Assembly: GCA_016192455.1 (NCBI GenBank)
Contig: JACPUC010000007.1
Span: 132,720-196,719 of the forward strand
Reading direction: 5' to 3'
DNA from: Candidatus Tectimicrobiota bacterium
Lineage (GTDB): Bacteria > JACPUC01
Length of the DNA: 64,000 nt
Each line of letters opens with the position of its first letter. Positions within the stretch are counted from its first letter, which is position 1. Both the position numbers and the translations under genes were made by a program. Below are positions 58,170-60,934 of this stretch, piece by piece. The notes beneath the pieces are model-generated. The model saw only the letters and a list, made by a program, of their open reading frames with translations, did no database searches and was not told where the DNA came from.

Positions 58170-59213
58170 ATGGCAACGTCTTCCGTTAAGCTGACGAGTA
58201 CCGTGAAGGTGGCTGGCTGAGCGGCGAAGCTGGGTCCGGGGGACCTTGAAGAAGCCGTCCGCGGCCTGCCAAGGCGCGATGATCCGAATCTCCTCGTGGG
58301 ACTGGAGTTCTCCGACGATGCGGGAGTCTACCGCCTGCGCGACGACCTGGCTATTGTGCAAACGGTCGATTTCATCACCCCGATCGTCGATGACCCTTAC
58401 ACCTTCGGCCAGATTGCCGCAACCAACGCCATTAGTGACATTTACGCGATGGGGGGCAGGCCGGTCACGGCGATGAACGTGGTGGCCTTTCCTGCCGGGA
58501 AACTCGACATCGAGGTGCTGCGGGACGTCCTGCGTGGGGGTGCGGAGAAGATCCACGAAGCCGATGCCGTCTTGGTGGGGGGGCATACGATCACGGATGA
58601 GGAGTTCAAGTACGGTCTCTCGGTGACCGGTGTCGTGCACCCGCAGAAGATTCTGAGAAACGGCGGGGCGCAGGTGGGCGATCTGCTGATCCTCACCAAG
58701 GCGGTCGGCACGGGTATCGTGAACACCGGCGTGAAGCGCGGCGCCGCCACGGACGAGGCGGTCCAGGATGCGATCACGAGCATGTGCGAGCTGAACCGTT
58801 ACGCCGCCGAGGTGATGAGCGAGTTTCCCGTGCACGCCTGCACGGACATCACCGGCTTCGGTCTGCTCGGCCATGCCAAGGAGATGGCGGTGGCCAGCGA
58901 AGCCGGGCTGATCATCAACGCCGATCGGGTGCCCCTCCTTACGGGAGCCCTTGAGTTGGCGCGGCAGAAGATGATCCCCGGCGGGTCCCTTCGGAATCGG
59001 GACTACCTGGCGCGCTACGTGGAGGTCAGCGCGCGGGTTCCCGAAGCCCAGGCGATGCTCCTCTTCGATGCCCAAACCTCCGGCGGCTTGCTCATCTCCC
59101 TCTCCGCCACCCTGGCGGATGAACTGCTGGCCGGGTTGCATGCCCGTGGCATCAAGTCCGCCGCCATCATCGGCGAGGTGACGGGGGCGCCCGTCAAGGT
59201 GAGGGTGCGCTAA
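58170..59213 (+). CDS. selD: Selenide, water dikinase SelD with in-frame UGA (selenocysteine) at residue 17
   Basis: A 347-residue protein when the UGA at 58218-58220 is read as selenocysteine. It makes selenophosphate from selenide and ATP, the donor for selenocysteine and selenouridine. The N terminus reads MATSSVKLTSTVKVAG-Sec-AAK. Sec17 and Lys20 fall exactly where E. coli SelD has catalytic Cys17 and Lys20. DDPYTFGQIAATNAISDIYA, FEFPVHACTDITGFGLLGH-type and FDAQTSGGLLIS motifs follow in the same frame. AGGA lies 8 bases before the ATG. Gene finders would start it at 58296 and lose the active site. Sec-containing SelDs are known in several bacteria and archaea. The organism should therefore have selA, selB and selC, none of which is seen here. 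Confidence 0.9.
58218..58262 (+). promoter_or_regulatory. UGA selenocysteine codon with bacterial SECIS-like hairpin
   Basis: The UGA is at 58218-58220. The upper stem GGTCC (58233-58237) pairs with GGACC (58241-58245), extended by a G-U pair (58232-58246), around a GGG loop (58238-58240) starting 18 bases after the UGA. GCGG (58221-58224) can pair with CCGC (58259-58262) as a lower stem. Bacterial SECIS elements place a G-bearing loop at about this distance, where SelB binds. Confidence 0.7.
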
Positions 59214-59561: not shown

Positions 59562-60686
59562 TTAGTGCTCCATGCGTTGCGGGCTCGACGCCAGGCGCTG
59601 CTCGGCGGCGGCCCGCATGATCGTATCCGGGATCACACGGCGCGTGCCGAGGCCGAGGATGAAGTGGTTCGGTCTGCTGAAGATGCGATCGGTGATCGTG
59701 CCGATGGCTTTCCAATCAACGGGGCAGAGCCGCAGCTCGCGGCTGAGGGCTTCAATGGCGTGCGCGCTGGCAAGGAAATCGCCGCTGAACTTCACCTCCT
59801 TGAGGAATCGCTGGTTGTGCAGGGTGACGCAGGCCTCGAAGGCGCCGAATTGAATAGGAGTCGTGGCGCTGCCGAATGGCTGCTCACTCATCGCGCTGGA
59901 AGCAAGCCAGGCAGGTTCCTGGAACGTGCTCGTGCGCATCACCTCGAGGTAGGAGTGCTCCAGGTGATTGAACTCTCGTTCCTGGACCTGCATGGCGTAG
60001 TGCTCGGCGTAGCCGTGGACGATCGCCGCCACCAGCTCATCCCGCGGGATGGCGCGTCCCACCGCCTCCTCCAGCGTGCAGCACTCCGTCTCCTGCGGGA
60101 GGTCTTCCCGCCCGGCGGGATCAACTCCAGCCTCCGCCAGCCAGGCGGCCGCCACGGCGAACGACTGGCGCCAGGCCAGGACGCACTCGAGGAGAACCGC
60201 GCCCGCTTCATCCACCTCGAAGGAGACCCAGCCCACCTTCTTGCTCTGCGCGGTAAGAAAATCTCGCCCCGGGTAGAAGGAGCGCGCACCAAGCCGATTC
60301 AGCCCCTTGAGGATACCGCGCACGTAACGGTTGATTACCTTTTCGGGCGGCAGGGGCTTGGGAAAGCTGTTGGGAAGCATCTCTACGGCGCGCGGCATGA
60401 CGAAGGAGACGTGCAGGAATTCCTCGCCACCGGGGATAAGCCGGCCGCCGGTGAGGCGTCGCTGCGCCTCCACCGTAGCCGCGCCGGCCTGGCGCTCGAA
60501 GAACGGCGCCGGCAGGCGCTGGTAACGACCGAAGCGTAGGCTGGGGCCCGCCATGGTCGAGCAGCGCAGAACCGGCTCGCGCGACCTCGCCGCCTTCTGC
60601 GTGGCATGCATCAGATAGCGGTCGATCGCGAGACTCTGGGCCGCCGTCTGCTCAAGGAAGGGAACGACCTGGAGGATGAGCGTCAT
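59562..60686 (-). CDS. Lipoate-protein ligase A family protein
   Basis: A 374-residue BPL/LplA-fold protein. RFGRYQRLP (51-59), RRLTGGRLIPGGEEFLH (76-92, the family's RR-GG loop binding the acyl-AMP) and RDFLTAQSKKVGWVSFE (141-157, with the likely catalytic Lys149/150) are those of lipoate-protein ligases. The acylation loop has GGRLIPGGEE where LplA has GGGxVxHD, so it is a divergent branch. About 150 C-terminal residues extend beyond the catalytic core. GGGAGAAG precedes the start at 60686. It may load lipoate or an octanoyl group on carrier domains. No lipoylated enzyme gene is adjacent. Confidence 0.82.
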   Translation of the reverse strand: MTLILQVVPFLEQTAAQSLAIDRYLMHATQKAARSREPVLRCSTMAGPSLRFGRYQRLPAPFFERQAGAATVEAQRRLTGGRLIPGGEEFLHVSFVMPRAVEMLPNSFPKPLPPEKVINRYVRGILKGLNRLGARSFYPGRDFLTAQSKKVGWVSFEVDEAGAVLLECVLAWRQSFAVAAAWLAEAGVDPAGREDLPQETECCTLEEAVGRAIPRDELVAAIVHGYAEHYAMQVQEREFNHLEHSYLEVMRTSTFQEPAWLASSAMSEQPFGSATTPIQFGAFEACVTLHNQRFLKEVKFSGDFLASAHAIEALSRELRLCPVDWKAIGTITDRIFSRPNHFILGLGTRRVIPDTIMRAAAEQRLASSPQRMEH

Positions 60687-60934
60687 CTTCTCTCCCTGCA
60701 CGGGAAGAACTCCGCACCACACCCTTGGACAGGAACAGCTCGCAGGCTCTTGTACCAGCTCCCTGGCGCCCCCCACCCTCATCAGGTGCGCTGCTGCCGG
60801 GGTAGAGCTTCCTCCTTGGCCCCGTCGCCCCTCCGCAAGCAGCTCATGCGGGCCGCCCGCATCGCGGCCCCGGTCAGGGAGTTCACCGGCGGGCGCAGCC
60901 GCACCAGCGCTCCTCCTCTTTCAAGCCCCCCGCG

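Follow-up and report, generated by a model that had tools for sequence, protein, structure and literature searches.

In a survey of 223 reference genomes, ~19% of detected SelD genes had selenocysteine (Sec), always at the position discussed here (Mariotti et al. 2015, PMC4561486). Among prokaryotic selenoprotein families, SelD has been described as ranking second in size. Of the bacterial selenoproteins, FdhA and SelD are the most widespread (Zhang et al. 2006, PMC1794560), and all Sec-decoding organisms without FdhA in that 2006 survey had a Sec-SelD (PMC1794560). GrdB is also listed among the known prokaryotic selenoproteins, and Prx-like UxxU forms and deiodinase-like proteins are included among them (PMC13188914). 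The published bSECIS model specifies a loop of 3 – 9 nt with a G within its first two positions, a stem of 4 – 16 bp, a spacing of 16 – 37 nt and an MFE of -7.5 kcal/mol or lower (PMC13188914).

The window analyzed here (64,000 nucleotides of a contig from a Candidatus Tectimicrobiota bacterium) carries a selD frame that runs from ATG 58170 to a stop at 59211-59213. In the sequence and its read-through translation, the sole interruption of this frame is a TGA at 58218-58220, codon 17 (Table 1). Codon 20 encodes Lys, and the read-through protein begins with MATSSVKLTSTVKVAG-U-AAKLGPGDL.... An earlier sequence-only reading had described the frame as open from this ATG if the UGA is read through, with the UGA as residue 17 and Lys at 20, and all of these are present in the sequence. 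Scans for promoters and terminators around selD returned no result on the + strand. At 59562-60782 of the window (- strand) lies a 406-aa ORF, for which only a sub-threshold lipoyl-ligase-like match was obtained (PF21948, 23.7 bits).

Table 1. Features of the selD locus (window positions) and further genes of the same genome with in-frame TGA (contig and position).
Feature	Position	Strand	Basis
selD CDS (selenide, water dikinase), 347 residues with Sec17	58170..59213	+	Read-through translation; TIGR00476; solved SelD structures
In-frame TGA, read as Sec17, at the catalytic Cys17 position	58218..58220	+	Sequence; 3u0o alignment; relatives' codon 17
Frame expected from a conventional gene finder, GTG start, 305 aa, without active-site loop	58296..59213	+	Mechanical ORF list
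bSECIS apical stem-loop, 6 bp (58232-58237 with 58241-58246), loop GGG 58238-58240	58232..58246	+	Folds; relatives' pairing; published model
Likely bSECIS extent, including lower stem 58221-58225 with 58254-58258 in a longer fold	58221..58258	+	Single-sequence folds only
Three GrdB-like genes (PF07355), probable selenoproteins	C31:29680-30738 (L146), C30:92888-93931 (L147), C5:56068-57129 (L148)		TGA in ILT[S/A]TUGT..RCG
Seven AhpC/TSA-fold genes	C31:75970 (L151), C5:40802 (L153), C30:65892 (L155), C27:116562 (L156), C23:22490 (L157), C20:47929 (L160), C9:76107 (L159)		TGA at catalytic thiol
Deiodinase-like protein, one of eight AhpC/TSA-fold	C1:78518-78919 (L161)		PF00837, 48 bits; TGA in ITUPPY

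The 347-residue read-through was compared with the SelD equivalog model TIGR00476 (curated cut-off 125 bits) and scored 395.5 bits over residues 7-313. Among solved SelD structures it matched 2yye (E 2e-77) and 3u0o (E 2e-67), and alignment with SelD families, proposed as a check on the reading, gave a full-length match to SelD models and solved structures. The alignment with 3u0o, which we take to be E. coli SelD, was full-length, began at residue 1 in both proteins, and placed U17 on Cys17 and K20 on Lys20, the catalytic residues of the E. coli enzyme; the two proteins differ at position 17, where 3u0o has Cys and the window's SelD has Sec. 2yye, presumably Aquifex aeolicus SelD, is the nearest solved structure by sequence and shares the G-x-A-A-K-x-GPGDL loop, but its crystallized chain has Cys at the position aligned to Sec17. 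By its equivalog score, and by Sec at the Cys17 position and Lys20 in the N-terminal loop, the gene is classed as SelD, and synthesis of selenophosphate is predicted for its product. The described Sec-SelD/SPS proteins (TIGR00476) have the same enzyme family, Sec position and downstream bSECIS and show no difference of substance from the window's SelD, which is at most ~59% identical to the relatives found.

The same alignments bear on where translation starts. Standard gene finding had been expected to begin at 58296, and the mechanical ORF list does give the GTG at this position. If translation began there, the upstream part would be untranslated and the product would be a SelD lacking both catalytic-loop residues, Sec/Cys17 and Lys20. 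The homology, however, reaches residue 1 of 3u0o, an AGGA motif is present 7 nt upstream of ATG 58170, and conservation covers the residues before and around the UGA: of the TGA-containing relatives described below, 74/99 have Ala at -2 and 99/99 have Gly at -1, and L-T recurs near -9/-8. We regard initiation at the GTG as barely credible.

Codon 17 was readable in 106 related SelD genes (from Thermodesulfobacteriota, Chloroflexota, Acidobacteriota, Bacillota and others) and was TGA in 100 and TGC or TGT in 6. The 100 include the window's own gene re-fetched (L098), leaving 99 independent genes, and the relatives were chosen by similarity to a Sec-SelD, so that 94% TGA does not represent the overall rate. 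On a quick SelD tree, no well-supported kin of the window's SelD were found. No further genome of the source phylum was among those compared, and the lineage appears poorly sampled.

A point mutation or a sequencing or assembly error could have made a Cys codon (TGC/TGT) into TGA, in which case the true gene would be a Cys-SelD or a pseudogene. TGA is one base from either codon and Cys-SelD does exist (6/106 relatives), but TGA occupies the same codon in 99 independent genomes and the remainder of the selD frame is intact. The hairpin kept across relatives, together with the Sec machinery and the other candidate selenoproteins of the genome (all described below), also argues against such an artefact, which we consider very improbable.

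A hairpin with a GGG loop had been reported to start 18 bases downstream of the UGA. The hairpin exists, but its stem starts 12 nt past the UGA and only the loop begins at the 18th base, for a UGA-to-loop spacing of 17 nt. With this spacing, a GGG loop, a 6-bp stem and an MFE of -8.1 (apical 27 nt) to -18.0 kcal/mol, it falls within the published bSECIS model on every count, and the proposed bSECIS fit is thereby confirmed. Taken singly, the hairpin of the window's gene is not significant and constitutes weak evidence (fold z-score -0.84; all six pairs also form in ~9% of random synonymous recodings). Rfam yielded no SECIS match at this locus, whether the gathering threshold was applied or E values up to 10 were admitted; this was counted as uninformative.

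Across the 99 TGA relatives, standard pairs were observed at 484/594 stem positions, as compared with 394 ± 8.6 under synonymous recoding (500 trials; maximum 429 pairs); because the relatives share ancestry, this excess of ten standard deviations overstates independence and the figures are upper bounds on strength. Pairing fell from 81% to 57% or less when the 3' side was slid by 1 – 3 bases. Mean MFE of the 99 relatives was -8.3 kcal/mol, versus -4.5 ± 0.3 kcal/mol after synonymous recoding, and each relative's own MFE fold fitted the bSECIS model in 83/99. Together these measurements are strong evidence that the hairpin structure is kept across relatives beyond coding need.

On the quick tree, five label changes are required to account for the six Cys forms, and two Terriglobia Cys sequences are nested among Sec ones. 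Codon 17 of selD is TGC in these two (L059 and L065) and TGA in their near relatives L058 and L069. In both Cys-SelD genes much of the hairpin survives at the sequence level, which is what a Sec-to-Cys change would be expected to leave, and such a change is probable for L059 and L065 on the basis of these sequences.

Searches of the window's own genome for selA, selB and selC, to which the sequence-only reading had pointed as a further check, recovered all three, and neither selB nor selC was lacking. selB (366 bits) has winged-helix domains 2 and 3 and is adjoined by selA (596 bits), and the tRNA-Sec (selC, 75.5 bits) has a UCA anticodon. Genome completeness is rated at 88%, and absences are therefore provisional. 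Within these limits a single selD was found in the genome. The other SelD-like matches (E 1e-8 to 1e-7) are distant proteins of the general AIR-synthase fold, so no Cys copy was found as a fall-back. The best match to selenouridine synthase (SelU) in the genome was 21.8 bits, under the cut-off of 219.75. The artefact and the downstream start were both rejected, on the relatives' TGA, the hairpin, the machinery and the N-terminal homology.

Two family searches recovered at least 11 further genes with an in-frame TGA at a catalytic-thiol position (3 GrdB-like and 8 AhpC/TSA-fold; Table 1), the selenoproteome having been sampled via family searches and targeted stretches only. From their sequence motif, the three GrdB-like genes probably encode selenoproteins. 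TGA motifs of the AhpC/TSA-fold genes include YWUPYC, TWUPYC and FTPGUENE, and in the gene on C9 two TGAs lie three codons from each other (YWUPKU). No Sec-FdhA was found in the genome, where 0/17 molybdopterin-oxidoreductase matches (PF00384) had an internal TGA. Many molybdopterin oxidoreductases without an in-frame TGA are unusual in a Sec-decoding genome, Sec-FdhA being the commonest selenoprotein in such genomes. Rdx/SelW was absent from the search of this genome, and the single HesB-like match was without TGA.

Homology, hairpin, decoding genes and the relatives' TGA support the original claim that SelD is itself a selenoprotein, with UGA replacing catalytic Cys17. We place at about 0.97 the probability that this is a functional, single-copy selD whose codon 17, UGA, specifies selenocysteine, and from the same evidence we infer both Sec insertion and enzyme activity. 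In the proposed mechanism, SelB with Sec-tRNA-Sec and GTP would bind the small hairpin just 3' of the UGA and deliver Sec, and the resulting full-length SelD would carry Sec near Lys20 in its N-terminal selenium-binding loop. This Sec-SelD would make selenophosphate from selenide and ATP, and SelA would use the selenophosphate for more Sec-tRNA-Sec. Because SelA needs selenophosphate for Sec-tRNA-Sec, SelD output would depend on its own product in a feedback. Selenophosphate would then supply the genome's other predicted selenoproteins (GrdB-like and peroxiredoxin/thioredoxin-fold).

A broader reading, which we hold tentatively and at somewhat less than even odds, is that the Sec trait has been kept without Sec formate dehydrogenase or selenouridine synthase, on a Sec-SelD without Cys back-up and several Sec peroxiredoxin-fold and GrdB-like proteins, in a lineage without another genome compared at the phylum level. 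If so, the lack of a Cys back-up would make selenophosphate supply wholly dependent on decoding SelD's own UGA. The genome, in which Sec-SelD is present and no Sec-FdhA was found, fits the pattern of the 2006 survey (PMC1794560).

SelD with Sec at position 17 is a long-described and widespread selenoprotein, and the window's gene adds one more lineage to the known pattern. Many bacteria use UGA/Sec at the same SelD position, which makes the reading of the window's gene sound but ordinary. Its practical value lies in correct annotation: there is no truncation of selD, although standard gene calling drops the active-site loop, and an in-frame TGA would likewise mislead gene calls for at least 11 other genes of the genome.
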